From Xestospongia muta (lineage: Eukaryota > Porifera > Demospongiae > Haplosclerida > Petrosiidae): a DNA stretch of 64,000 nucleotides. How positions within the stretch are numbered: the first letter of the stretch is position 1; each line of letters starts with the position of its first letter. The DNA lies in NCBI GenBank assembly GCA_963693285.1, contig OY848920.1:9980182-10044181 (forward strand), given 5' to 3'. The notes under the pieces are model-generated. The model was not told the origin of the DNA. It made no database searches and saw nothing but the letters and a program-made list of their open reading frames with translations. Below are positions 10,001 through 55,758 of the stretch, in pieces. The position numbers and the translations under genes are program-made.

Positions 10001-13000
10001 AACTGACCAAGGACTTGAGGAGACTCAAACACAGTCCAGTCAGGAAGAGACATCACTTATCACTGAAACTACAGGTAGTACTATTCAATATATATAAATA
10101 GTCTTATAATACTCTTGTAGAATCTCTACCAATATCGGAGTTAAAAGATCAGTTAAAAGGTTCAGTTGATGATAAAGAAGACAGTTCCTTACCTCATCCA
10201 AGTATGTCATATTATAATTTGTATTATCATAACCAAGTAAAAAGAATAGGGTCTGGTCAATAACTATTATATGCAATATAGGGTCTGGTGAAGGCAAGGG
10301 CAATTAGTTGTCCCTTATACATATTGTGGTTGTGGTTGATTCATAAGCATAGGAACCAGATATTAAATTTGAGGGCACAAAATAAGTCTCATTTAGTTGA
10401 TCTTAGTTGGTTCTTCTCTATATAGTGACAAATAAAGGTTATATCAGCTTTAGTAGTAATATCAATGTTAACTCTATAGTCAAATAGAGTAGCTATCATT
10501 AATAGTTATTTCAATTCTCTAGTTCCAGAGAAGCCTTCCCATTTATCATCATTTGATTTAATGGGTTCACCTCATGACCAATTAAAAGCTAAAGTTATGT
10601 TCTCTTATACTGCCAGTCAAGATGATGAGATCACCATCAAAGAAGGTGACATTGTTGATGTCATTACCATGGAAACAGAAGATGATGGATGGTGGTTGGT
10701 ACGATATGGTATTCAAGAAGGTCTAGCACCAAGCAATCATCTTTCCCTCATACCATTATTATCACCATCTTTAACTTCAAATATTAGAGGTATGATGAAA
10801 ATATTTTCTCCGTAATTATAGTAATAGATTATTTAAATATGATTTCAATTGTAGCAGATGTCTGTTAGACAGTGAACACAAGTGTTTAATAACATTGATA
10901 ATGTAAATACATGATAAATATAGATGTTGATAAATAGGAACTGGAAAATTAATAGTGTTAATATTAATAATTTAAAAGGTGTGCAAACAAGGCAATTGAT
11001 CTGATGTCTGCACAGTTCTGATCGACTAGCACAAAGAGATCATGATTTTCTGTAAATTGTCTTTAGACATTAGCACAATAAACACAAAATGACTGGGAGT
11101 TCTTTATATCTCTATAGTATCTTTTCTGTCACCATGCATTTAACATCTATGGAGCCCCAAATACCTAATATATTGCACCATCTTTAGTTTTAAACATTTG
11201 TACACTTCTAACAGTAATTTGTTTTGTCTACTAGTAATGGTTGTATTGAATGATGTCATGATTCAGTCATAAATTACTACCACAAAGTGATAGTGTTGTC
11301 AGTAATAATATATTGATAATCCTTAAATTATAAATATTAAAATTTCAAATAATCTGGTTTATTCTAATATAAATGTCTTTATTAATAGAATCTCCAGATG
11401 ACATATTGAAAGACTCTGATGATAAAGAGGAGATAAAGGATAAAGAGTCAAATAAAGGTATGTATCTTTGAATAAATATAGGGTCTGGTGAAGGCAAAGG
11501 CAATTAGTTTTCCCTTATATTTTGTGGTAAAATCTGAATACACAGTAATTTATGCATGAAAGTAGTATCCTGTAAAGACAATGTTTATTATGTATATGGT
11601 TTATTAAACCCTTCCTCCTTTTGTGAGATTAGGAGTATGTGTCACAGAAACTGTTAGTCTCATCCCCAGACATCTACTCACTTAATGTGAGAAAGGATAT
11701 CTAGTGACTTTAGTTCAATTCCTCAGATTTGACTATGATATTGTCAGTGAAACATGTTATTACAAGAGAAAAAAGGTAGCTGGTTATATTACAAGTTGTG
11801 TACTAAGGAGCTACAGTCTTTGTTTCAAAGAATATTTGAAAAAATGTCTTAGCATGAAAACAAAATAAAATGTAATGAAAGGCACTAAAGTGCCGAACCT
11901 CGCTGTAGTTTCTAAGTTATTTATAAATTCTATGACAGCTTAGGCCCAGCTATGATGTTGTTATTGCAAGAAAATTTATTAACATTCCAGAAGGTGTGGT
12001 TATAAAATGGCAAGCTTTGTCATTCTGTATATGCTCATTAATTGTTGCTTGATTTCTAGCTTTGTCATGTTTGTGAAGCAGTAACTGAATAAGTGATAGT
12101 ATCATTCAATTCCCAAGCAAGATTAAGTGCTACTTTCTTGATGAAAAGTTTCTCTGAGTCTTTACATGACCCTTTAAAATCTATCAATATTTCATATACA
12201 AAATTTATTGTAACTTGAAGATGAAACCTTCTTTGGAAACGTCCCGTGGTACAAATATAGATCGATATATTATCTATTAGTAGCAGTCCTTTCAGTGCTT
12301 GGAGACGTTTCCTGAATGCGTTACTTCGCTCCAAGTCCACAAAATATTTTTCAGAACTTTTCTAAAGATTACTTCGACCAACGGCCTTCTGTCTTGCTGA
12401 TCCGTATTCCTCTGAGATTGTTTACAACATACTAAAAAATCTCCACGTTAAGTTTTTTACTTTTCGAGAAACGGCACTTGACCTCTGCAGCCTGAAAAAA
12501 TCTATCAATATTTCATATACAAAATTTATTGTAACTTGAAGATGAAACCTTCTTTGGAAACGTCCCGTGGTACAAATATAAATCGATATATTATCTATTA
12601 GTAGCAGTCTTTTCAGTGTTTGGAGACGTTTCCTGAATGCGTTACTTCGCTCCAAGTCCACAAAACATTTTTCAGAACTTTTCTAACGATTACTTCGACC
12701 AACGCCCTTCTGTCTTGCTGATCCGTATTCCTCTGAGATTGTTTACAACATATTAAAAAATCTCCACGTTAAGTTTTTTACTTTTCGAGAAACGGCACTT
12801 GACCTCTGCAGCCTGAAAATTCTTTTGCGAGTTTTAAGCTTCTGTTTTCCTTGACGATGTTCTTGACACTACTGTTGTAAAGTCCACATGCTTTTCTATT
12901 CGTTGCTAAACGTTGGTAGCTGCTAATGCTTCGGTTGCCAAGTTATAGCAGTTCAAAAAAAACAACTCTGGTAACAGACACACACACACACACACAAACA

Positions 13001-25581: not shown

Positions 25582-27052
25582 TTATATCAAATCTATTGCA
25601 ATCATTTTTATCACTATCATTAACACCACGATAAAGACAAACCTCTTAAGATAAACCACTTGAGATGAAGAGACTGCAACAGTGGAGCTAGTACTGTTAG
25701 CTACAGTACAACTGACTGTTATAGTAGGACTTACAGTTGTAATGGAACAAACATTGCTATCAGTAATACCACATGATGTTAAGTTAAAGGTGAAACCAAG
25801 TATAGGAGCACCACAACATCCCATATAGTCTACAAATGTTGTCACATTATCTTGACAAGGACCATCAATACAGTAGGCATTAACAGATCCATTACGAGTA
25901 TATGTTGGGCAGTAGAATAGAGTATCAAGAGGTATTATCACACCTGAAGTAATACCACGTAAATAACGTACCATACAATATTCTTGATTGATTTTATCAC
26001 ATACACCATTGTTAATATAAGTGATTCCTTTGGTAAAGTTAATACATCTGTAGAATGTAGCTGTTAACTCTTTACATTCACTAGCACAGTATTCAGTCAG
26101 AGCTCTATCTAGATGACAATATGTATCCATGGTGACATTCACAGGTGCTGTATGTAAGTATGATGTAATAATATGAAATAAAGTTCCTTTATTGGTACAA
26201 GTGGTACTATGGTTGGTAATCAGTTATTTTGGTACAATTTAGCTTTTCTTCATGAACATGAATTCTTCTTGTCATCTCTTATTATACCAGCTAGTGGTCC
26301 TTCTGATATAATGAGAGGTAATGCAAGCATTATTGCTACCAATGTGGTATCTGGTATATATCTATATGATGTAGATGAAGTCTGAAGCACAGAGAGTGGC
26401 TGGTCAGGCTTTCAGTAATTATGAGGTAGCCTATTACATCAAAGTGGCAATAAATATTGTTTTAGGGTAAGTAAGTAAGTTTGACATCTTTCATTTATTT
26501 ATTGTTTTATGTGTGTGTATCATAGATTTGTGTTGATATTGGTCTTATTGATGTCTCAGGGAAGTATACCTTTGGTAAGGTATCAGAAGTGACTGTGAGG
26601 GGAGTCTCGAGTAGTGACGTAATGACATTGTAAATGCCACAGAATAATACTCTCAGTTGTTGTTTGTTTTTATTTTTATTTTTTTATTTCTTGCATTGAG
26701 TTTATTGTATATTATTACTTTTAGAATGTTATATTAATTTGAATTGTAGTTAATATGTAAGTATGATGTAATAATATGAAATAAAGTTCCCTTATTGGTA
26801 CAAGTAGTACTATGGTTAGAAATCAGTTATTTTGGTACAATTTAGCTTTTCTTCATGAACATGAATTCTTCTTGTCATCTCATGTGAATCAAGTTTTAGA
26901 TTATGTATTGGTATTCTGTTCACAATAGATCTAACACATATACTACATTATCATGTGATCCTTTAAACAAGTATAATATATAATGCATAATACACAGTAT
27001 AGACTGAGAATTACCACAAAACAATACAACCATTCACTATGCTAAAAGACAT
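25582..27052 (-). CDS. Cys-rich membrane-anchored ectodomain protein, copy 3 (intron invaded)
   Basis: Exons 27015-27052 (MSFSIVNGCIVL) and 25582-26206. Phase and lengths match the other copies. The intron is about 600 bp longer because it holds a stefin-like fragment flanked by a 127-bp duplication of the intron/exon boundary, so two acceptor copies exist. The coding exons stay open. Confidence 0.6.
26278..26753 (+). pseudogene. Stefin-like gene fragment inside an intron
   Basis: Exon 2 equivalent 26375-26466 (MKSEAQRVAGQAFSNYEVAYYI, then shifted) is 92 nt instead of 93 (one A missing in the ATCAAAAGTGG run). Exon 3 equivalent 26526-26633 (ICVDIGLIDVSGKYTFGK...) ends in TAA. No start exon. 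It is nearly identical to the stefin exons of G5. Confidence 0.8.
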
Positions 27053-40100: not shown

Positions 40101-43100
40101 AGTAACTGATCAAGGACTTGAGAAGACTCAAACACAGTCCAGTCAGGAAGAGACATCACTTATCACTGAAACTACAGGTAATACTATTCAATATATATAA
40201 ATAGTCTTATAATACTCTTGTAGAATCTCTACCAATATCAGAGTTAAAAGATCAGTTAAAGGGTTCAGTTGATGATAAAGAAGACAGTTCCTTACCTCAT
40301 CCAAGTAGGTTATATTGTAATTTGTATTATTATAACAAAGTAAAAAGAATGTTTATTGATGTAATATACTAATACAATCCATTACATTCTTCAATGTTAG
40401 TATCATGATTCAGTCATAAATTACTACCACAAAGTGATAGTGTTGTCAGTAATAATATATTGATAATCCTTAAATTATAAATATTAAAATTATGAATAAT
40501 CTTGGTTTATTCTAATATAAATAATATTTATTAATGACATATTGAAAGATTCTGATGATGAAGAGACAGAGGATGAAGAGTCAAATGAAGGTATGTTTTT
40601 TGAATAAATATAGGGTCTGGTCAATACTCTTTAATGAAGGGTCTGGTCAATAACCATTTATGCAATATAGGGTCTGATGAAGGCAAGGGCAATTAGTTGT
40701 CCCTTATATTTTGTGGTAAAATCTGAATACACAGTGTTATTATGTAATTTGTGGTTTACATAAAAGTAGTATCCTGTAGATAAAGACAATATTTATTATG
40801 TATATGGTTTATTAAACCATTACTCCTTTTGTGAGATTAGGAGTATGTGTCACAGAAACTGTTAGTCTCATCCCCAGACATCTACTCACTTAATGTGAGA
40901 AAGGATATCTAGTGACTTTAGTTCAATTCCTCAGATTTGACTATAATATTGTCAGTGAAACATGTTATTACAAGAGACAAAAAGATAGCTGGTCATATTA
41001 CAAGTTGTGTACTAAGGAGCTACAGTCTTTGTTTCAAAGAATATTAGAAAAAATGCATTAGCATGAAAACAAAATAAAATGTAATTAAGATGTCTCTATC
41101 TTCTAAAAATTCACAAACAGCTTTCTCTTGATCAGCAGGTGGTTTACTAATTCTGAGTACCAAAAATTGATTGCTTTTGACAATATTTCAATAGGAACCA
41201 TACCTTCAAGTCTAGGTATCTAGACTTTGTTCTCCATTTTGAACAGTGTCATTTGTAACATCATACCCTAGGAGCATTCTGATTGGTGAGCCAAAAATTT
41301 GGCTTAAATAAAAGGAATTGGACTTAAGTCACCAGACACCTTTTCTCACATTAAGTGAGTGAGCATTTGGCCATAAGACTGCAAACTCTCCACAGAGAAG
41401 AATATTAGGGGAAATCCCTAGAATAATTATTTATAAAAATATAAAACATACTTATATCAACTATTGAGCATGATGTGACAAATAGAGAGAAAATACTTTT
41501 AAGAGAACAAGAACTGAGTAAAGAGGATATACTGAACGTCCTAACCTGAAGTTGTGATGAAGTTTGTATATGGAGACCACGCTTTTATGAATAATTAAAT
41601 ACATATTTTTTTCATAAGTCTTTACACACCAACAACAGACATTTCACTATATGCCTGCTCAAGAAATAGCTAGCAATGCAAGAGTCAATAAAATGGAGGA
41701 ACATTATTGCATATCACAATAACAAAAACATTATACACTTATATTGTAATATTAAAATGCATAAATTTAAATTTACATTGACATCACCTATGTGTGATAT
41801 CTCTATATGTAATAATATCAGCAGATAAAGCCTGAGGAGATATCTAAGACTATATGTAATGATCATTGGGGAAACCATGTAGATCTATGAAGTAGACATT
41901 CTTTGAGTCTCAAAACATAACAACACAACTAGTACTTCAAAACTATTATAATACTTTATGTACAGTGTTTCTATAGTGATGTGTCAGTTTAAACATTATC
42001 TTAGTTGTTTCATTTCCTTTTGTGACTTCAGTATACAAATCTCTAATGTATTAATAACCACACCCACTTATTTCATACACTGTAAAACATTATCGTCATT
42101 GCTTTATACAAAGTTTTTTTATGTCACAATACAAACTAATAATTGACTTAATTCATACACAGCCTCTATTACAAACAGTTACTGTCTCTTTACTATATTT
42201 GTCAGTAGAGGACAATAACTGACATTATTTTGGATAGTATCACAATGTTAATGTAAACAGACAAATAGTTAGTAACAAAATGAATTATTATTTGTCTTGA
42301 AAGTTTCCTGTTATACAATATATGGAATTATATAACATATGTGGGTGGAGCACTATTATGAATGATTGTTATTATAGACAAGGTGTTATTTTTCCTTTAT
42401 TGATTGTCAAAGTAATCTACTTGTCTTTCTTCTATCAGTACCTTAACTAATAAACTACATCAGATTGCTTCATTGTTTATAGTCAGACTCAATATATCTA
42501 GACTAATCATAGTCTCGTGAGCCACACCCTTTGCTTAGAGAGGAAGGGTCTGGTCTACCAGTCCATGCATAGTGCAGTTGTTGAAAAGGAATTTCATTAA
42601 CTAGTATCTGTGGTTTGTAATAGTTATGTGTTAATCTAAACATACTGACCACTTGAATCAGCAAGGAGAAAAGGAGACAACAGGTTGTTTAAGAAACGTT
42701 CACTAAGCTGAGTTTAAGTCAGAGCAGATGATGGTCATAGAAGCTTTTATTAGTGGTATGGATGTGTTTGTCGCTTTACTGACTGGGAATGGCAATAGCC
42801 TTATATATGCCACACTAGTCTCTCCCCTGTTTGGATTGATGCAAGACCAGGTACAAGTCTTCTCTTCTAAGGGAATCTTCTCTGTATCTAATACGTGAAG
42901 ACTTCGTTAGCAGTAACTAACACGTTACGTTATTATGCAGCTACGTAAACAATTGTGGTTTACTCAAGTACCTGTTGACCAAATAGTGGTTTCCCCAGGA
43001 ATGCTGGGGAAGGAGACAACTGCACTATGCGTGGTAGACAAGACCCTTCCTCTCTAAGCAAAGGTTCTGACTCGCGAGACTAGACTAGTCAGTCAGTAAA

Positions 43101-44205
43101 CTCTACAGATCACAAGTCTCCAGTTGATATATATGAGTACCTGATATCCAGTGATGTGTTCTGTTAATATGATAGCAATGATAGATTTATATCTATTGTT
43201 CCTTTGTAACCCTATCAGTACTCAAGAGATTTTCCTGTTAGGAAAATTTAATAAGCCCCGCCTCCTATTAGCTTGTTCCCATAATAACCATATTCAGTAA
43301 ACAGTAATGGCTTCCTTTCTTCTTCAGTGTGTTGTCTGTGTATTGTAGTGTGTTATAGTATATATTACTATGTGTGTACTATACTATTATACTAACTCTG
43401 TTTTATAATAGGAGACACTGGAAGAGTTGAGTGGAGAGATGATGTCAATAGTGTTAGACTCACTAGACCAAGTGTAGTACAAAGTGAAGATGTTATAAGT
43501 AAATTAATAAAAGAACAACAAACAGGAAAAGAATGGAGTATTAATCTCTACTCATCATCTCCTGAAAGTACTGCAGTTATTATAAACAATCTTAATAAGT
43601 ATACAGTGAGGAGTCTTTATATACGAGACACTTCATTGGACAGTAAGTGTGTATCGATATTATCAGAGATACTAAAAACTAATAAAACAATAAAGAGGCT
43701 AGTGCTGTTCTCCTCTTCACTTACTGGTGGTATCAAACAAGTCAGTGATAGTCTCTGTAATAATGAAACACTTGAACAGTTAGTGTTGTATGATGTTACT
43801 GGTATCACAGATGAGGATATGACTCACTTATCTACGATGTTAGCAACTAATACAACTTTAAAAGTACTACGTCTCCCCTACTGTAACATCACTGATAATG
43901 GAGTCCAATATATCTGTGAAGGACTTACTAAAAACCAAACATTGACTACGTTGAACATCGGAGGTAATCGTCAGATCACTTCAGTTAGTACCAGTACAAT
44001 AGCAGATCTAATACAAACTACTACATCACTGATAACACTATATCTCTACAATACTTCACTGAACAATGATGATATCAAGACAATATGCACATCACTAACT
44101 AAAAATACTACAATAAGGAAACTATACTTATCAAGAGAACATAAAGAGTATTGTATGAAGTTAGGCAGTTATCAAGTTATTAAAGACAGACTTGTGTTCG
44201 TGTAA
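37185..44205 (+). CDS. G4: intact Death/CARD-like/coiled-coil/LRR gene
   Basis: Exons: 37185-37497, 37569-37667, 37779-38081, 38149-38526, 38574-38636, 38684-38743, 38793-39472, 39531-39648, 39734-39796, 39888-40025, 40070-40177, 40224-40304, 43412-44205. The sum is 3198 nt, 1065 aa plus stop, open throughout. The acidic exon is present near 40535-40591, but a 13-bp deletion removed its AG acceptor, so it is left out; skipping keeps the frame. CARD-like 2 and exon 7 are mosaic: exon 4 begins like G1/G3/G6 and ends like G5. The AATAAA region after the stop is deleted in this unit. Confidence 0.8.
40863..41380. mobile_element. TIR element family A in G4 intron
   Basis: The left end is intact; the right end is altered (gagcatttggccataagact). 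Confidence 0.6.
42510..43082. mobile_element. TIR element family B with RecQ-like fragment, G4 intron
   Basis: Same element, more decayed (LLTGNGNSLIYA) with a small deletion in the helicase-like part. Confidence 0.75.
43412..44205 (+). CDS. G4 LRR exon (intact)
   Basis: Open from acceptor to TAA. Strands: INLYS, SLYIRD, LVLFSS, LVLYDV, LRLPYC, LNIGGN, LYLYNT, LYLSRE. It shares LVLFSS and LRLPYC with G0 and SLYIRD with G6, a mosaic pattern. Confidence 0.85.
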
Positions 44206-45118: not shown

Positions 45119-45991
45119 TTATATCAAATCTATTGCAATCATTTTTATCACTATCGTTAACACCAGAATAAAGACAAACCTCTTAAGATAAACCACTTGA
45201 GATGAAGAGACTGCAACAGTGGAGCTAGTACTGTTAGCTACAGTAGAACTGACTGTTATAGTAGGACTTACAGTTGTAATGGAACAAACATTGCTATCAG
45301 TAATACCACATGATGTTAAGTTAAAGGTGAAACCAAGTATAGGACCACCACAACATCCCATATAGTCTACAAATGTTGTCACATTATCTTGACAAGGACC
45401 ATCAATACAGTAGGCATTAACAGATCCATTACAAGTATATGTTGGGCAGTAGAATAGAGTATCAAGAGGTATTATCACACCTGAAGTAATACCACGTAAA
45501 TAACGTACCATACAATATTCTTGATTGATTTTATCACATACACCATTGTTAATATAAGTGATTCCTTTGGTGAAGTTGATACATCTGTAGAATGTAGCTG
45601 TTAACTCTTTACATTCACTAGCACAGTATTCAGTCAGAGCTCTATCTAGATGACGATATGTATCCATGGTGACATTCACAGGCGCTGTATGTAAGTATGA
45701 TGTAATAATATGAAATAAAGTTCCTTTATTAGTACAAGTGGTACTATGGTTGGAAATCAACTGAGTTATTTTGGTACAATTTAGCTTTTCTTCATGAACA
45801 TGAATTCCTCTTGTCATCACATGTGAATCAAGTTTCAGATTATGTATTGGTATTCTGTTCACAGTAGATCTAACACATATAATACATTATCATGTGATCC
45901 TTTAAACAAGTATAATACATAATACATAATACACAGTATAGACTGAGAATTACCACAAAACAATACAACCATTCACTATACTAAAAGACAT
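45119..45991 (-). CDS. Cys-rich membrane-anchored ectodomain protein, copy 5
   Basis: Exons 45954-45991 (MSFSIVNGCIVL) and 45119-45743. Like copy 1 it keeps the 5 bp missing from the intron of copies 2-4. One glycan-neighbour change, TYTRNGS to TYTCNGS, adds a Cys. Confidence 0.65.
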
Positions 45992-46216: not shown

Positions 46217-49200
46217 ATGGCTGAAGGAAATCTTTCATTTGAGAAGATATTAGAAGAGAAACCAGCTCTTGATGAATTATGTGAACATATTCACATTGGT
46301 GGTAAATGGTATCAGTTTGGAATCCTGCTTAAACTTGATTCCAAGAAGTTGGATGATATTCGTAGACAACCTGATGATTCTACTTACAAGACATTAAAAA
46401 TGTTTGAGTTGTGGTTGAACACCAACCCTAATGCTACCAGAAGACAAGTTTTAGATACTTTGAAGAAAGAAGTTATTGAAGAAAACACTGTCGCCTACAA
46501 ATATGAGCAGATATTGAAAAATTCTGTTGGTCAGTGATATATCACACACTTTGATTACTAATTTATGGGTTAAATATCGTCTGTAAATGTCATATTATAG
46601 AAATAGACTCCCAGTCCTCAACTATTGAATCAAGTACTATTCTTCCAAGCCATACTGATACACTATCACAGTCATTGAAAAGTTCCTCTAGCACTGTTGG
46701 TGAGTAAAATCATGTATCTAGTGTAGTCAATAATAATGATATGTCTGGTATATTGGTATATGTATTGAATAATTATAATACTGAGTAATGAGCTAGTGTC
46801 TTTATCATAGGAAGTGATTTCCCAGTAACTGAAGCTAGTACTATTTTTTGCCGCCATATTGATACACTGTCACAATCTTCATTCAATCCTGTAAAAGTGT
46901 CTCAGCTCCTATTTAGTAAGAGATGTATCAGTGAAGCAACACTTGATAGTATAGAGGGACTAAAAGGTTCCCCAGATGAGAAGAAGGCAACTCTGTTATC
47001 TGCTATACATACAGCAATATCTTCAGATCACAAGAAGTTGAAAGTGGTAGCTACAGTACTGTCCAAGTTTGGGAAGACAAAAAATCTATCTGACATACTT
47101 ATTAGTGAATACAGTAAGTAACTAAGAACTAGAGATCAATTTTATAGTGGAAAACTGACATCTCTTTCTATATTAAATAGCTCAAATGTATCCTGATGAC
47201 CAGATGATCGCAGATATTGTTCAAGAGTTACCACAGACAGTTCATAGTGATCAAATGAGTCGTGAAGATCATGCCAGTGACATTTTACATTGTCATTATG
47301 GTACTCTCTCTCAGTCTCTCCGATATCCTGTTAGAGTAGCACACTACCTCTATGGAGAGGGAGTTATTACAAAAACTAGACTAGCAATTTTAAAACATAC
47401 TGCCAAGTCTTTGTCAACAAGTAAAGCATTATTTATGCTGTTAAGAGCTGTACGTCATGCTATACATACCAACTATCATCACCTGATGATCTTTGCTAGT
47501 GTGCTGTTAAAATTTACTAGCAATGTACCATGTGGTAATGCTATCTTAAATGATTGTGGTAAATGTATTGGTTATTGTATAACTGTTAAAAATTGTTTAA
47601 TGTAGATAAAGCATTTTTTGAAGACAAAGATTCAGAAGTACCACATGTTATTACTGGAGTTAGTGAAGGTATATTTACTGTAGTATATTAAGATCATGAT
47701 ATCATTGTGTCAATTAGCTAATTCATTGACCACTACATCAGAAGCTTTAGTTGATAGCAGTTTAACTTCAAGTCAAAGTTAGTAGTGAGACTATATGAGG
47801 GCCTACAATGTTTCTTTCAATTCTAGATGAGGCTGTAAGGAAGGCTGCAATTCCAATTCCTCAAAAGTTTAAGTCAGTACTTGCAGAAATGAGAAAGGAA
47901 TATGCTATAGCATTCAGTAATATCCGAGAAGCTATCAACACAACTCCTCCACCTCTGGATAAGTTGAAACAGTTTCTTAAAGATGGTTACTCTCACCTCA
48001 AATCTCAAATAGCTCATTCTGCCTCCATTGATGATGTCCTAGATGTTGTTAATGATCATTGCACACTGATCGATATTAGTTGTTTAGAGGGTATTGTAAC
48101 TCGATTCAAAATCAAAGAAGCTGAGACACATATACAAGCGTACAAAAATATTGTTCAGTCATTTCGTGAAAAAACGAAAGCTTCTCTTTGTCTGAATGAA
48201 AATTTTAAAGTTACAAACACACCTTCTCTTCTTATATGTGAGACAGCAGTCTTTGTTTTGAACTGGGATCCTAACAATTGTACCTTAGAAACTATTGAGG
48301 ATATCCTTTCAGAATCAGTTGAAGGAAATGTACAGATTCGTGTCATTAGAGAGGGCAAGTCTATCAGTGTCACCTGCTTCTTTCCACTCAGTCTAACAAC
48401 TCTACTTATTGCCAGAGCTCAGGAGACTCTTGAATCATTGAAGAGGAGAGGATTACTTCAACTTACAATTGGTCACTGTACCATTTATGATCATAGAAGA
48501 GACAAGGTAAGAGATGAATAGTATTAGACAACAGTTACTACATGTGTTGTTTATTGATATATAGGAGGTTAGAACTATTGTAGAAGAGAACACAAAGGAG
48601 TTGAGAAGTCAACTGGAACTAGAACAAACCATGCGGAAAAAGATGACTATACAAATGTCCTCTATTGTCAGACAAAATGAAGGTAAATTGTGTACAACTA
48701 TTGTTTTATTTAATAGCTGTCTATTATATGATATATCTGATTAATAACTTAATGTTCCTTTATATAGAAACAAGAGAAATGAAAGAAAAAACAATTGAAG
48801 ATTTGACATCACTTGTGAAAACAAAGGAAGGTAAATTAATACAACAGCAATCACAAGTCCAATGTTGTCAGTATTTTACATAATATATTAGTGATCAATT
48901 TTCTTCTCATTTTATATGAAGCTTTTGAGAAGAATATACTGTCAGTGTCTGCTGAGAAACAGAAAGAGCTAGAGACACTACAAGAAATAATAACATCAAT
49001 GACTTTACAACTAAGGGAGAGAGACCAACAGATTGAGGAGTTAAAGCAGAGCTTGAAAGGTAACTGGTATTAGTCACTTCTCATTATATGACATTGTTAC
49101 TAGATCTAGCATTCATAACAAATACTCGTAAAACAGTAACTGATCAACACCATAGACCAGAACATATACTGCCACCTAGAGCAGATGCTTTAACTCCTGT

Positions 49201-49557
49201 TAGACCAACAGCTAAGGAACGAGATATAGCAATGAAGGTGTGTATGTACTGTTAGGAATCTAGTATATATCTATATGATGTAGATGAAGTCTGAAGCACA
49301 GAGAGTGGCTGGTCAGGCTTTCAGTAATTATGAGGTAGCCTATTACATCAAAAGTGGCAATAAATATTGTTTTAGGGTAAGTAAATTTGACATCTTTCAT
49401 TTATTTATTGTTTTATCTATCTTTGTCCTGACGTGTGTGTGTATTATAGATTTGTGTTGATATTGGTCTTATTGATGTCTCAGGGAAGTATGCCTTTGGT
49501 AAGGTATTAGAAGTGACTGTGAGGGGAGTCTCAAGTAGTGACGTAATGACATTGTAA
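46217..49557 (+). CDS. G5: chimeric Death/CARD-like/coiled-coil/stefin-like gene
   Basis: Exons 46217-46529, 46601-46699, 46811-47113, 47181-47558, 47606-47668, 47718-47777, 47827-48506, 48565-48682, 48768-48830 and 48922-49059 match the array gene. Exon 11 (49104-49237) starts as in the other copies (DLAFITNTRKTVTDQ) and at about 49148 passes without a stop into foreign sequence (HHRPEHILPPRADALTPV... RDIAMK). It then splices in phase to stefin-like exons 49284-49376 (MKSEAQRVAGQAFSNYEVAY...CFR) and 49450-49557 (ICVDIGLIDVSGKYAFGK..., TAA). Total 2550 nt, 849 aa plus stop. Stefins are intracellular inhibitors of papain-like cysteine proteases, but this domain lacks the QxVxG loop. The LRR sensor is thus replaced by a stefin-like fold. 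Confidence 0.78.
49284..49557 (+). CDS. Stefin-like domain exons of G5
   Basis: Two exons of 31 and 35 codons, with introns after ...MK and after ...CFR, exactly where the free-standing stefin at 54724 is split. The pattern AxxxxKSEAQ, FSNYEVAYYIKSGNKYCFRICVDIGLIDV follows the stefin helix and central strands. Confidence 0.7.
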
Positions 49558-49817
49558 ATGTCACAGGATAATACTCTCAGTTGTTGTTTGTTTTTATTTT
49601 TATTTTTTTATTTCTTGCATTGAATTTATCGTATATTATTACTTTTAGAATGTTATATTAATTTGAATTGTAGTTATAATCTCACTTGTTGATCTGTGAT
49701 GTCAAAATCATGATAGTCAATTTAACTCAACATAATTTATTGAAATAAAAACAACACTTCAATATGTATGATGTATCAGCATATATAATTAAGTCACTAA
49801 GCAAATTAATGGCAATG

Positions 49818-50243
49818 TTACCAATTTAGCTTCATGGGCTCTTTTGCAGGGTCAGGGTCAGTAATCTTCTTGGCTTTAACATTATCAACATCACCTAACT
49901 CATATTCTCCACAGACATCAATTACTCCATCATCAACACCAACCTGTTAACAGAACATGTATTGAAGTAATTTATAATAATATCTTACTCTGAAACAGTA
50001 TACACTGTCATTATTAATGTACCAGTCAACATTGTAAGCAGTGTATTTTTTTTATTGTTTAATTTCTTCTCTGCTTCACTCCTCATCTAGACAAAGCAAA
50101 GTTTGTTGCATTCAATGTGATTGTTTATCTCTTACCTTCTCGGCTATTTTTTTCTGCGCCTCATCTGGTTTCTCATGAGTTAAAGTACCTGATGGAGGAG
50201 GTGGTATGTAATCCGTAACAGGACGGTCACCGTATCCTGACAT
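49818..50243 (-). pseudogene. Stefin-like gene copy A (1-nt deletion)
   Basis: Three exons: 50136-50243 (MSGYGDRPVTDYIPPPPSG...), 49989-50086 and 49818-49943. Exon 2 is 98 nt where its duplicate at 52070-52168 has 99: one base is lost in an A-run (AACAATAAAAAAAA against AATGGTGGGAAAAAA). The shift brings a stop early in exon 3. Exon 3 itself reads well in the original frame (VGVDDGVIDVCGEYELGD...). Confidence 0.8.
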
Positions 50244-51522
50244 GTCGATAATCACTTGAAGACGACCAATTGATTTCACAACCGAGACTGCTTAAGTAAT
50301 ACTTTACATTGAGCCACGCCCTGTTTTTAATGAACTTTTACTTCCAGTCTTTAATATATGTGACCAGATTTGTAACAAGTGACACAAGTGGTCTCTTTTT
50401 ACAAATCTGGTCACATATTATAACATTTATTACTCAATCTGTAAAGTGTACAGTTTTAAATGCAGTATGGTTTTAAAAACTTTATTTGAATAATCAGTGT
50501 TGTATCTGGATGACATCATGTGATGATCTTTCTACAACTCACTTAATTCCTATAGTCATAATGTACAACTAGAACAATGATATTTGACATGATATATTAA
50601 CAGCAGCAGTCATTAAATAAGAACAAAATGTTATAGTAATATATATATTATTGTATGAGTTCTGTGGAATGATAATTAGATTAACTTAACAGATGTTCCA
50701 CTGATGACATATAGTGTCAACTTTATAGTGTGATATGTTTAGGGAATATTTTGTCTACATAGAGCTAATTAATTATCAGTGACTAAATTTTTTTTTATAT
50801 TACAAAGAGGAAATAAGTATGTTCACTTTATGTATATATAGCCTCATTGAGACTAATTATAATATTCTACTATAGATAGGGTCAGTACCTCCAGACTGTC
50901 AACAATGGACACTAGCTAGTATATTACTAATGGTTAGTAGTAAAATATGAACAACAACAACAACAATTATATGTTCTAATACTTGCAAGTACTTACATTC
51001 TTAGAGTAGTCATTGACAACATAATGAAAATCAAATGATTACAATATACAATGATCATATGTTATTATCATTTATACTATATACGATTATATCCTATACA
51101 TCTGAATATTTAACATTATAAGTGACCAATAACAAGTAAGAGGTTCCAGTGTACTTCTTCATTTACCAGCTTTCTTATTTCCCAATACCATGCCAATCCG
51201 AAAAACATACCAAAAGATGGAGATGTATTAATAGCTGTTATAGACCAACAGCTAAAGAACAAAATATGTATCCAATGAAGGTGTGTATGTACTGTTAGGG
51301 ATGATCTATCTGGTATCTGGTATATATGATGAAGATGAAGTCTGAAGCATGCATATGCAGAGAGTGGTTAGTCAGACTTTCGATAATTATGAGGTAGCCA
51401 GCTATTACATCAAATGTGGCAATATAAAATTTATATTGTTTTAGGGTAAGTAAGTTTGACATCTTTCATTTATTTATTATTTTATCTATCTTTGTCCTGA
51501 CATGTGTGTGTATGTATTATAG
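50244..51522. other. Intergenic part of the stefin duplication, copy A, with decayed stefin exons of copy B
   Basis: No intact gene. A hairpin lies at 50355-50418. About 51230-51430 holds a decayed + strand stefin exon 1/2 copy (DNA tagaccaacagctaaagaac; exon 2 disrupted by an insertion after KSEA). TACATAGAG at 50756-50764 is the empty site of the foldback element found in copy B. Confidence 0.5.
50355..50418. repeat. 64-bp hairpin element
   Basis: Arms atatgtgaccagatttgta (50355-50373) and its inverse (50400-50418) enclose a 26-nt loop. Absent at the matching place in copy B (about 52433), so it is inserted in A or lost from B. Confidence 0.65.
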
Positions 51523-51630
51523 ATTTGTGTTGATATTGGTCTTATTAATGTCTCAGGGAAGTATACCTTTGGTAAGGTATCAGAAGTGACTGTGAGGGGA
51601 GTCTCAAGTAGTGACATAATGACATTGTAA
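51230..51630 (+). pseudogene. Decayed + strand stefin-like exons, copy B
   Basis: Exon 1 remnant near 51240-51285. Exon 2 near 51319-51446 is broken by small insertions, with early stops after MKSEACICREW. Exon 3 is intact at 51523-51630 (ICVDIGLINVSGKYTFGKVSE..., TAA). This is the duplicate of the G5 stefin exons. Confidence 0.7.
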
Positions 51631-51904
51631 ATGACACAGTTGCAGGATAATACTCTCAGTTGTTGTTTGCTTTTATTATTTTTTTTTATTTCTTGCATTG
51701 AATTTATTGTATATTATTACTTTTAGAATGTTATATTAATTTGAATTGTAGTTATAATCTCACTTGTTGATCTGTGAACACTGTGATGTCAAAATCATGA
51801 TAGTCAATTTAACTCAACATAATTTATTGAAATAAAAACAACACTTCAATATATATGATGTATCAGCATATATAATTAAGTCACTAAGTAAATTATTAGC
51901 AATG

Positions 51905-52325
51905 CTACCAATTTAGCTCCATGGTCGCTTTTGCAGGGTCATTAACCTTCTTGGCTTTAACTTTATCAACATTACTAAGGGAATATTCTCCACGGACATC
52001 AATTACTCCATCATCAGCACGAACCTGTTAACACAACATGTAATGAACTAATTCATGATAAGATCTTACTCTGAAACAGTATACATCGCCATTATTAACG
52101 TAGTCGTCCACAATGTAATTAGTGTATTTTTTCCCACCATTTAATTTCTTCTCTGCTTCACTCCTCATCTAGACAAAGCAAAGTTTGTTGCATTTAATGT
52201 GATTGTTTATCTCTTACCTTCTCGGCTATTCCTTTCTGCTCGGCATCTGGTTTCTTTGGAGTCAAAGTAGCTGATGGAGGAGGTGGTATGTAATGCACAA
52301 CAGGACGGTCACCGTATCCTGACAT
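51905..52325 (-). CDS. Stefin-like protein, copy B (intact)
   Basis: Exons 52218-52325, 52070-52168, 51905-52024, all phase 0: 36 + 33 + 39 residues, 108 aa, TAG stop. The sequence runs MSGYGDRPVVHYIPPPPSAT, a helix AEQKGIAEKMRSEAEKK, then strands KKYTNYIVDDYVNNGDVYCF, VRADDGVIDVRGEY. Length, missing signal peptide and cytosolic character fit family-1 cystatins (stefins). The inhibitory QxVxG loop is replaced by a shorter YVNNG turn, so protease inhibition is uncertain. Confidence 0.75.
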
Positions 52326-52788
52326 GTCGATAATCACTTGAAGACGACCAATTGATTTCACAAGCGAGACTGCTTAAGTAATACTTTACATTGAGCCACG
52401 CCCTGTTTTAATGAACTTTTACTTCCGGTCTTTAATAATTATTGTAACATTTATTACTCAAACTGTAAAGTGTACAGTTTTAAATGCAATATGGTTTTAA
52501 AAACTTTATTTGAATAATCAGTGTTGTATCTGGATGACATCATGTGATGATCTTTCTACAACTCACTTAATTCCTATAGTCATAATGTACAACTAGAACA
52601 ATGATATTTGACATGATATATTAACAGCAACAGTCATTACATAAGAACAAAATGTTATAGTAATATATTATATATTGTATGAGTTCTGTGGAATGATAAT
52701 TAGATTAACTCAACAGATGTTCCACTGATGACATATAGTGTTAACTTTATAGTGTGAAATGTTTAGGGAATATTTTGTGTACATAGAG

Positions 52789-53121
52789 TAGTCTCGTCCC
52801 CAGACCTACTCGCAAGGTAAAGTAGGTCTGGTCAGACGGCTTGACTTTTGTGTTTCCAGTAAGGAATGTGGCGCGGGTGTTGGTATGCAATTAGAGGTAG
52901 TGTAAAATATGAATATCATCAAATTGAAGTATGTGTGAAAGCGAATGCATGGCTACTCTTAATGAAATCTGCTTTAACAATTCAATTTGATGATATTCAT
53001 ATTTTACACTACCTCTAATTGCATACCAACACCCGCGCCACAATCCTTACTAGGGACACAAAAGTCAAGCTGTGTGACCAGACCTACTTTAAGCTTGCGA
53101 GTAGGTCTGGTGATGAGACTA
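52789..53121. mobile_element. 333-bp foldback element with 9-bp target duplication
   Basis: Two nearly perfect inverted arms of about 141 bp (52789-52929 and 52981-53121) flank a 51-bp loop. The ends start TAGTCTCGTCCCCAGACC. The direct repeat TACATAGAG occurs at 52780-52788 and 53122-53130; the duplicate locus has a single TACATAGAG at 50756-50764, the preserved empty site. No coding capacity, so non-autonomous. Confidence 0.9.
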
Positions 53122-53130
53122 TACATAGAG

Positions 53131-54723
53131 CTAATTAATTATCAGTGACTAAATCTTACTTTTATATTACAAAGAGGAAATAAGTATGTTCACTTTATGT
53201 ATACAATATAGCCTCATTGAGACTAATTATAATATACTACTATAGATAGGGTCAGTACCCCCAGACTGTCAACAATGGACACTACCTAGTATATTACTAA
53301 TGGTTACTAGTAAAATATGAACAACAACAACAATTATATATTCTAATACTTGCAAGTACTTACATTCTTAGAATAGTTATACATTATTGACAACATAATG
53401 AAGGTATGATAATATACAACCAATGTATAATATCATTTATACTACTATATATACCACAATTAACAATATTATACAAACATCATAGACTAACATAGATTAC
53501 TTGATGAAGACCTGTTACCAGTGATATTGATATAATACATTTAAGAAACATTATCACTAATTACTATAAATACATAATGTCATTATTAACAATAATATGA
53601 GGAAATAAGTGTATATATTTTATAGTACATGTAAATAAGTTAATAAAATAATGTCATAGTAGTGTGTTGTACAGGTGTCCTGTAAAGTACGCCATAAAAG
53701 TTTATAGGGCTTATTTTGTGGTTATAATTATCTAATACTAAATCTCATTATATTACTAGAGGAAATAAGTATGTTCAGTTCATGTGTACAATGTGACCAC
53801 AGACACTAATTAACATAGTGAGAGAATTAATAATAGATATGAATCACAAACCATGTCTAATATTCATATTGACACGTATCATGTGATCATGTGGTCATGT
53901 CTGCAATCAATTCATTGCTTTATTATTTAGATACATGTAATTGAGCCGTGCCCTTTCCAAAGCTGCTATGCTCATTAATTTAGTGATGTTTATTTTTAGA
54001 TACTTAGAATGTCTTTATTTAAAATGTAACAAGGCTCCATTAGCTACTATGATATTGTAATGTAAATCAGTTTACGATATAATTTCATGTGGTCAGACAC
54101 ATGTGAAAATTTCTAACCACACAAGACTATCTTATGCAATATCTGTAGCTATATCTTCCAGTAAATTCCAGTACATAAAGTATACTTGTATATTGGAACT
54201 AAATTATAAGTATATGAGTAAAATATTCTAGTGATTTGTTGATTTCACCAATATATTGTTATACAGGTTATGTGTAGCAAACTAATAATATGATGTGAAA
54301 GTAGACATAACACTGTTTTATTACTAATGTACTACTGTTTATGCAGCTATAGTACATTAGTAATAAAAGTGTTATGTCTACGTTCACATAGTTAAATCAA
54401 CAAATGAAATTTTACAGTGTGCACTATATGTATAAAACCTTTATGTACATATTGATGCTCTCATTACATTTCTTCATTGCCAGTACGAGTGTAACTAGTG
54501 TCAATGCCAAATGTTTTGTTCAATGAATTTAAAGTTTTCAGTTGAAAGGCTAGACTTATTTAATTTCAATAAAACAAATTACAACAGAATAGAATCTACA
54601 GCTACTCATCACATTACACTTCCCCTCCTCCACTATCTAATACAACTGATAATACTACATATTATCATTGTAATGTAGTGCAGACAATGGGGATGACCCT
54701 GTCAATTGTCACTTTCAACAAAC
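53131..54723. other. Intergenic region before the + strand stefin gene
   Basis: No coding exon recognised. Up to about 53400 it repeats 50760-51030 (end of the tandem duplication). A large hairpin lies at 54230-54418. The rest is AT-rich and unexplained. Confidence 0.4.
54230..54418. repeat. Imperfect palindrome, about 190 bp
   Basis: Inner arms 54293-54333 and about 54350-54389 (gtagacataacact... and its inverse) and outer arms near 54233-54250 and 54398-54415 (tttgttgattt). A possible MITE; no target duplication was identified. Confidence 0.6.
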
Positions 54724-55240
54724 ATGGCTAGTCTTAAGAGTGTTCCTGCTGGTCCTCCTCCAGGATCAACTGGTCCTCCTGATGTTGCTACTCCAACTCC
54801 AGCTACTGGTAATGAACAGACAATAGCAAATAAAGTTAGTTTATCATTAATATCATGAAAACACTCTTATTATAGTCTCATACATGGTTCTAGTAAAGAT
54901 GACCAGATATTATTACACACCTCATAATTAGCACACATTATATAGTGTGTAAATGAACTCTGTATTTATGACAGGTCAAGTCTTCAGCTGAAAAACAAAC
55001 AAAGTTAAAGTTTAGTCAGTTCAATGCAGTCTCCTATATCAAACAAGGAAACACTTATTTGATTAGGGTAATTATCACGATAAGTGCATACCTTAACTTG
55101 CTGTGCTTCCTTTCCTTTCTCTTCAGGTGAATGTTGGTGACCAGTTTATTGACATATTGGCTGATTATAAAATGAACAGGGCCTCACTCAAAGCTCCACC
55201 GCAATTAGGCAAGGGAGCTAATGACCCAATGTCATTTTGA
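54724..55240 (+). CDS. Stefin (cystatin B)-like protein, intact
   Basis: Exons 54724-54834 (MASLKSVPAGPPPGSTG..., EQTIANK), 54975-55067 (VKSSAEKQTKLKFSQFNAVS...LIR) and 55127-55240 (VNVGDQFIDILADYKMNRAS..., ending NDPMSF, TGA). All junctions are phase 0; 105 aa in total. The FNAVSY, VNVGDQFIDI strands and the terminal D-x-M-S-F follow vertebrate cystatin B closely. No signal peptide, so cytosolic. The first inhibitory loop QVVAG is absent; Tyr-Ile-Lys-Gln-Gly stands there and is two residues shorter. The N-terminus is Pro/Gly-rich. Confidence 0.82.
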
Positions 55241-55758
55241 TTTGGTTGTTTTGTCATTATTATATATTTGTGTGTGTGTGTTGTATATTAGTCAAAATAG
55301 CTAGCAATTTCGATCTTTGAAATATTCTTATAGACAAGTACAAGAATATAATATATTATATTATTATATAGTACACATTTAGTTCATAAACACTATGTAT
55401 AAACTTATATGGTGTTACAGATTACATACAACTATGGGTCAGTTATTATAAGGACATTACTTTATTACTCTACATAGCAGTAGTAGCTACATTGTTATGA
55501 TAAGAACAAAGGTTTGTAGTGAGTGATATTCAATTCATAAACAGTTGATAAAGGCCTTTACACCAAACCATTATGTTATAAGGTGTGTCTATGTATTATG
55601 TTACAAAAAGTACTCAAAATATGACAAGTTCACAACATTAGTATTATGTAACTGGTATTCTGTTCACAATAGATCTAACACATATACTACATTATCATGT
55701 GATCCTTTAAACAAGTATAATATATAATACATAATACACAGTATAGACTGAGAATTAC
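55241..55758. other. Spacer with breakpoint back into the array
   Basis: Nothing coding seen. From about 55650 the sequence again matches the intron of the Cys-rich gene (ggtattctgttcacaataga), so the stefin block ends here. Confidence 0.5.

Follow-up and report, generated by a model that had tools for sequence, protein, structure and literature searches.

A real chimeric gene, joining in frame a Death-domain gene to a stefin-derived one, was found within a tandem array of the sponge Xestospongia muta; its architecture is new and its use is unproven. The gene, named here G5, starts at position 46217 of the window, this being the whole stretch of 64,000 nucleotides that was analyzed (C4:9980182-10044181), and it was compared with the 158 Mb of genome searched. 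That the Death-stefin fusion is real at the DNA level we hold as very nearly certain. An earlier note on this DNA had proposed such an in-frame fusion, and this was borne out by an open frame of 13 exons, by the end of the homology with sibling genes at 49147 and by the behavior of a probe spanning the junction. We favor, as moderately probable, the reading that G5 is a genuine chimeric gene which arose where a segmental duplication, probably head-to-tail, has its boundary, that it is transcribed and that its tail is not inhibitory.

G5 belongs to an array of nine Death-family copies (G0 to G8, shared part at C4:9976887 to 10061224), of which G1 to G6 start inside the window. The model for G5 (46217-49557, plus strand) comprises 13 exons with GT-AG borders, agreeing phases and no internal stop, and it gives a predicted protein of 849 amino acids, the same number as that stated in the earlier note; a variant with 12 exons gives 821 amino acids. 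In this 12-exon version the shared part was open in all nine copies of the array, and its length changes were multiples of three only. Exon 1 (46217..46529) contains the start codon and a Death domain at amino acids 17-84 (PF00531, 30.0 bits vs. a curated cut-off of 22.6, E 6e-7). Helical domains are encoded by exon 3 (46811..47113) and exon 4 (47181..47558), the latter with a weak structural resemblance to the death-fold (CARD/PYD), and exon 7 (47827..48506) encodes a domain of 226 amino acids that is also present in two proteins of Amphimedon queenslandica. No credible match to exons 3, 4, and 7 was obtained among PDB sequences, and Foldseek returned no match at E <= 0.001 with the model of exon 4. 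Exons 2 (46601..46699), 5 (47606..47668), and 9 (48768..48830) complete the exon chain together with exon 6 (47718..47777, 60 nt), which differs among the nine copies by 3-nt length changes only. The charged helical stretch of exons 8 to 10 begins with exon 8 (48565..48682) and ends with exon 10 (48922..49059), the last exon of purely Death-gene origin. Thus, from the Death/CARD-like character claimed before, the Death domain stood, whereas the CARD-like part was weaker than claimed; the same applies to the coiled coils, which correspond to the charged helices of exons 8-10 and were recognized by inspection.

The joint was placed between 49147 and 49148 by comparison with the eight siblings and with a native stefin-like gene, in keeping with the breakpoint at about 49148 suggested previously. 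Exon 11 of G5 (49104..49237) resembles that of the siblings up to 49147 (...GTAACTGATCAA), the point at which the homology stops. Beyond this position the other eight array copies all continue natively (GGACTTGAG), whereas G5 reads CACCATAGACC. The parent of this second part is a native stefin-like gene located at C4:9970591-9971015, with an ATG and an intact frame of three exons, whose start reads ATGGCTGATGATCAACGCCATAGACC; it is the source of the tail of G5 from its fourth codon on. Consequently, the stefin part of G5 lacks a start codon and upstream sequence of its own, and the fusion retains the stefin-like protein except for its first three residues, point changes aside. Both parents share exactly the 7 bp TGATCAA at the joint (49141..49147), with GAT CAA in the same codon phase in the two of them, so that the Death frame is preserved and the stefin introns can still be used. 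Frame retention alone is unremarkable, since a random joint would be in frame one third of the time. The fusion exon is Death-derived through 49147; beyond this point, starting with 49148, it consists of stefin exon 1, almost the whole of which is present. It is followed by exon 12 (49284..49376), equivalent to stefin exon 2, and by exon 13 (49450..49557), equivalent to stefin exon 3 and closed by TAA. The stefin exons are therefore three and not two, as had been counted. An AATAAA lies 3' of the stop (49744..49749), and the 3' flank of the native parent also has one (C4:9971152).

A junction probe of 201 bp had a single full match in the genome, which was the locus itself (40 of 169 candidates scored). 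The remaining 39 candidates scored matched one side only. On the right side, from query base 82 onward, these were three native stefin-like genes; on the left side they were 36 Death-family copies, 33 of which ended at query base 88, corresponding to 49147, and three at base 84. In the reverse experiment, using the native exon 11 of G4 as probe, all 40 candidates scored (out of 206) ran past the break position. Neither the junction probe nor the reverse probe turned up another fusion in the genome (40 of 169 and 40 of 206 candidates scored, respectively), and none of the other eight array copies has it.

The region is a long array of near-identical tandem copies, where mis-assembly is plausible, and the joint might be an artefact that brought two loci together; the earlier note had itself named an assembly join as what would refute the breakpoint. 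This explanation was rejected. An open reading frame of 55 amino acids (P0001), located on another public contig, 118,611 bases long, crosses the same joint with 54 of 55 residues identical; it begins in the final bases of the intron and passes through the Death half and across the joint into the stefin half. The residue that differs is D in P0001, as in the native sequence, and H in the window (EDI/EHI), and both sequences share an R-to-H change beside the joint as well as Death residues specific to G5. Since the same joint occurs on a different contig, it was not created by the assembly of the window; P0001 could come from another individual or from the other haplotype of the same one. In addition, the joint lies in non-homologous sequence sharing only 7 bp and does not fall in a long repeat. 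We regard an assembly artefact as extremely improbable. A further open reading frame, P0008 (45 amino acids, on a contig of 2,129 bases), is a relative of stefin exon 1 that starts with MDTTANDLRHRPED instead of the native MADDQRHRPED, reflecting either another start or another join.

The tail of G5 belongs to a derived stefin-like family, devoid of the hairpin motif, that adjoins a canonical stefin in the same cluster (C4:9967515-9968959), the latter displaying QIVAG and matching Pfam Cystatin (E 1.9e-9) and cystatin A of the PDB (E 6e-17). Pfam Cystatin gave no match on the fused tail or on three derived relatives, so ancestry was taken from a PDB profile search and from hhalign. A profile built from eight derived members, leaving the canonical one out, had cystatin B/stefin B as its top PDB matches (E 9e-4), and hhalign aligned the derived profile to the local canonical stefin with 93% probability (P 2.5e-7). 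When single sequences were compared with the canonical stefin in a shuffle test (n = 8), the outcome was uneven: for six of them no more than one of 500 shuffles attained the score (none for the fused tail), for one it was 6 of 500, and for a minus-strand-type relative 130 of 500, i.e., no signal. The genome-wide Pfam search for Cystatin yielded no matches, but its 14 controls were equally silent, so that it carries no information; the canonical stefin is present in the genome. According to PMC7913475, stefins have two introns at conserved positions; the tail also has two introns, both of phase 0 and at the same positions as in the canonical stefin of the cluster. The tail of G5 shares with the stefins (type 1 cystatins; cystatin A/B) three exons, two phase-0 introns at the positions of its canonical neighbor, and cystatin B as best PDB match of the derived-family profile. 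It differs from them in being part of a Death protein and in lacking the hairpin Q-x-V-x-G, the N-terminal glycine, the LP loop, and the D-x-L-x-Y-F end. What had been described as a cystatin-fold module has, on this evidence, stefin ancestry (profile match and shared phase-0 introns), whereas its standing as a module is weaker than described, most of the stefin contact elements being lost.

These losses bear on the idea that the tail might be an active inhibitor of cysteine proteases coupled to Death signaling, checking for instance cathepsins in a cell-death complex. It is favored by the stefin ancestry, by the canonical stefin of the cluster with its QIVAG and by the tail's own literal QRVAG (49299-49313). 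However, counted from G to G, this QRVAG precedes the hairpin position by 15 residues and falls in a stretch aligned to the helix, and at the aligned hairpin itself the tail reads YIKSG after a deletion of three residues, with no Q-x-V-x-G. A phase-0 intron shared after YFIK/YCFR backs this register, with QRVAG in the helix and the deletion at the hairpin. The pattern also appears in two of the three closest unfused relatives (QRVAG and QRVVG; C4:10075701 and C4:10073643), and the parent reads QRAAG. From the alignment, the upstream QRVAG is read as a coincidence. The glycine preceding the first helix was absent in the fusion and in three of seven unfused derived relatives, the other four having glycines there; the LP of the second loop and the D-x-L-x-Y-F end were absent in the fusion, which ends in SSSDVMTL, and in the derived relatives aligned. 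The survey passage of PMC7913475 describes the N-terminal glycine and Q-x-V-x-G as conserved in all its sequences, sponges included, and of the four stefin contact elements listed in that passage none was found at the aligned place in the fusion. Lacking the hairpin motif, the LP loop, and the C-terminal end of stefins, and with an N-terminus that is not a free trunk with glycine, the tail is most likely no cysteine-protease inhibitor. On sequence grounds protease inhibition seems unlikely, and an inhibitor acting in Death signaling very unlikely.

From 49148 to about 60550 the window was largely collinear with C4:9970608-9981416, in the order stefin-like gene, convergent minus-strand stefin-like gene, a second pair, a third stefin-like gene, and then G6 against G0. 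When this stretch was taken in consecutive pieces of 600 bases, the best match was collinear with 9970608-9981416 in 14 of 19 (up to 99.5%), and in the other five it was another copy outside the collinear segment. Because the joint coincides with the start of a duplicated block formed by the stefin cluster plus G0, a duplication boundary is the likeliest origin. Generation of chimeric genes at duplication breakpoints is a well-known general mechanism. G5 resembles such chimeras in that the end of one unit meets the beginning of the following one, microhomology is present at the joint, and parental genes of both types persist intact nearby; the mechanism being ordinary, the novelty lies in the pair of domains. 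The left side of G5 is a Death-family gene cut in exon 11 and the right side a duplicate of the neighboring block (stefin cluster plus G0), the halves meeting at the shared TGATCAA, whose codon phase is the same in both. One head-to-tail duplication, with microhomology at its joint, would probably be enough to explain G5. The simplest duplication model predicts, to the right of the joint, a sibling that resembles the Death part of G5 as closely as one stefin half resembles the other. In contrast, the nearest copy was G4, which lies to the left of G5 (97%, dS 0.08), and the model therefore requires a subsequent conversion or loss.

The segment homologous to the stefin cluster (49148..55637, strand not assigned; matching C4:9970608 onward) occupies the place of the LRR-containing part of G5. 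In G4 an LRR exon (43396-44205; LRR_6, E 3.4e-8) lies 3.3 kb downstream of the break position; this was the only LRR frame put to Pfam, and similar open reading frames follow G0 to G3 and G6. A short LRR string occurs after seven of the eight siblings, the exception being G7, where the stretch still aligns to that of G4 across the LRR exon. It is likely that the LRR exon belongs to the same transcript as the sibling Death genes, the exons checked being native exons 11 and 12. The replacement of the LRR in G5, as claimed before, was confirmed insofar as the downstream block with the LRR exon of the siblings is missing and the stefin-cluster segment stands in its place. Other ends exist in the family. 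Two of the nine array copies, G1 (10523-10789) and G8 (C4:10061743-10062009), have an SH3 exon of 89 amino acids, phase 1-1, in frame after exon 12 (SH3, E 5.8e-12). In 13 of 40 genome copies scored, similarity to G4 ended at 40183, six bases past the predicted donor of exon 11, and thus other tails may exist. Scoring of the 7991 candidates with the most words in common yielded only two named protein relatives, both from Amphimedon queenslandica; their identity was 33-34%, and the alignments covered 47-52% of the query. These proteins, LOC100636424 (P0010) and A0A1X7UWC... (P0011), have the exon-4-like and exon-7 domains in common with G5 but differ at the C-terminus, which is of the 2OG-Fe(II)-oxygenase type in P0010 (DIOX_N E 2e-21; 2OG-FeII_Oxy just below cut-off) and a Ras-like GTPase in P0011 (E 1.4e-27); Death was just below the cut-off in P0011 (22.2 vs. 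22.6 bits) and unmatched in P0010. As a family, it gives the impression of a hub at which C-termini are exchanged.

Pfam scans of the G5 protein revealed neither NACHT (821-amino acid version) nor LRR, and none of 98 genome matches to NACHT fell in C4:9.97-10.07 Mb (exon-wise, 102 of 155 candidates scored); with no NACHT in G5, nor in the array among the matches scored, G5 is no NLR. Its family resembles the Death-type NLRs of sponges (NLRD) in the N-terminal Death domain, the large expansion, and the downstream LRR exon of the siblings, whereas G5 itself differs from them in lacking both NACHT and LRR. Judging by titles and the beginnings of abstracts, none of the papers listed pairs a cystatin or stefin with a death domain or with sponge NOD-like receptors, nor did the protein set searched (7991 candidates sharing most words scored) contain such a pair. 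The earlier statement that no described Death-cystatin architecture was known agrees with these searches: the architecture is new to the sources searched, although its way of arising is ordinary. One literature passage reports multi-domain cystatins from bilaterians only. Passages of PMC2784779 describe stefin and cystatin genes fused to others in bacteria (a stefin-chagasin in Bacteroides fragilis; a triplicated cystatin plus another gene in Polaribacter). These are comparable to G5 in joining a stefin or cystatin gene to another gene, but they are not animal, and those passages make no mention of a Death domain.

Death exons were under purifying selection, with dN/dS of 0.14-0.48 over 36 pairs and 0.30-0.45 in the eight pairs that include G5. 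The stefin part presented five nonsynonymous and no synonymous differences from its parent over 288 nt, with 2/119 in the introns; no constraint was therefore visible on this part, which changed no more slowly than its introns (288 vs. 119 nt). Without selection, four lineage-specific changes would all be nonsynonymous 35% of the time, so the 5:0 count neither shows nor excludes function. Likewise, the probability that four random changes introduce no stop in the stefin part is 0.82, which makes its open frame uninformative.

These data are compatible with a fusion that is real in the DNA but a transient by-product, i.e., an unselected chimera, open by chance and heading to decay with no role, and we consider this a serious possibility, even if the less probable one. 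In its favor are the lack of any sign of selection on the stefin part, the restriction of the fusion to one of nine array copies, and the condition of the same copied block, where a minus-strand stefin-like gene near 50100 carries a 1-nt deletion absent from five other copies aligned and a recognizable exon 1 is lacking in the second plus-strand copy (near 51200; no match to exon 1, and a stop read there). Nevertheless, the 13 exons and their splice sites are all intact, the Death half evolves like its siblings, and the fusion has been assembled at least twice, in the window and in P0001, which have already had time to diverge; moreover, the left-hand counterpart of the second plus-strand copy has a stop in exon 1, and the decay may predate the copying. 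It is also conceivable, but unlikely, that the stefin exons are unused, the G5 transcript ending or being spliced before them to give a truncated Death protein. Indeed, were intron 11 left unspliced, the frame would stop soon after 49237 (AMKVCMYC in P0001). Against this, the intact native gene has almost the same stefin introns and splice sites (of 119 intron bases, two are changed), and there is an AATAAA beyond the stop.

Having weighed these alternatives, we return to the favored reading of G5 as a transcribed chimera with a non-inhibitory tail. A fused transcript is fairly probable, a functional and selected protein doubtful. The gene would be transcribed from the Death-gene promoter and its product would consist of the Death domain, the helical domains, the exon-7 domain, and the coiled coil, ending in a stefin-derived fold and having no LRR tail. 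This tail might cap the protein or bind something else, and the protein, deprived of the LRR input, would take part in homotypic Death assemblies, either as a regulator or as a receptor with a new recognition end. The presence of other C-terminal modules on the exon 4/exon 7 core in the two Amphimedon proteins, and of SH3 in two array copies, was counted for this explanation. As a quite unlikely extension, the Death/exon 4/exon 7 core may be a sponge immune platform with a C-terminal swap site (LRR, SH3, oxygenase, GTPase, stefin), G5 being a working member in which a non-inhibiting stefin fold serves as recognition end or bait, e.g., for microbial proteases. Integrated decoys are a known design in plant receptors, and if the swap-site reading were true G5 would be their animal counterpart. 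In G5 the birth of a multidomain gene of immune type can be read from the DNA: the two kinds of parental gene, the joint, and the duplicated block have all been preserved. If it is transcribed and kept, a Death-stefin architecture is added, and the C-terminal variation of this large Death family becomes testable.

Several other features were observed around the fusion. The minus-strand stefin-like gene convergent with it (about 49820-50243) has its 1-nt deletion in exon 2, by comparison with five other copies aligned, which represents either a frameshift or a sequencing error. The second plus-strand stefin copy (near 51200) lacks, as mentioned, a recognizable exon 1, and in its left-hand counterpart a stop is already found in exon 1. 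Fragments of the same stefin-like gene, comprising exons 2-3, occur in the spacer between G2 and G3 (26346-26752) and at the far end of the array (C4:10070753-10071164). Past the right end of the array there is a second, inverted stefin-like cluster (C4:10072165-10077155), so that stefin clusters of opposite direction flank the array. A cysteine-rich open reading frame is repeated in the spacers of the Death genes (45119-45886, minus strand, and copies), the one scanned having no Pfam match. Finally, the copied stefin block contains inverted repeats at 52789-53121 and 54232-54389, the second of which matches dozens of sites in the genome and is mobile-element-like.
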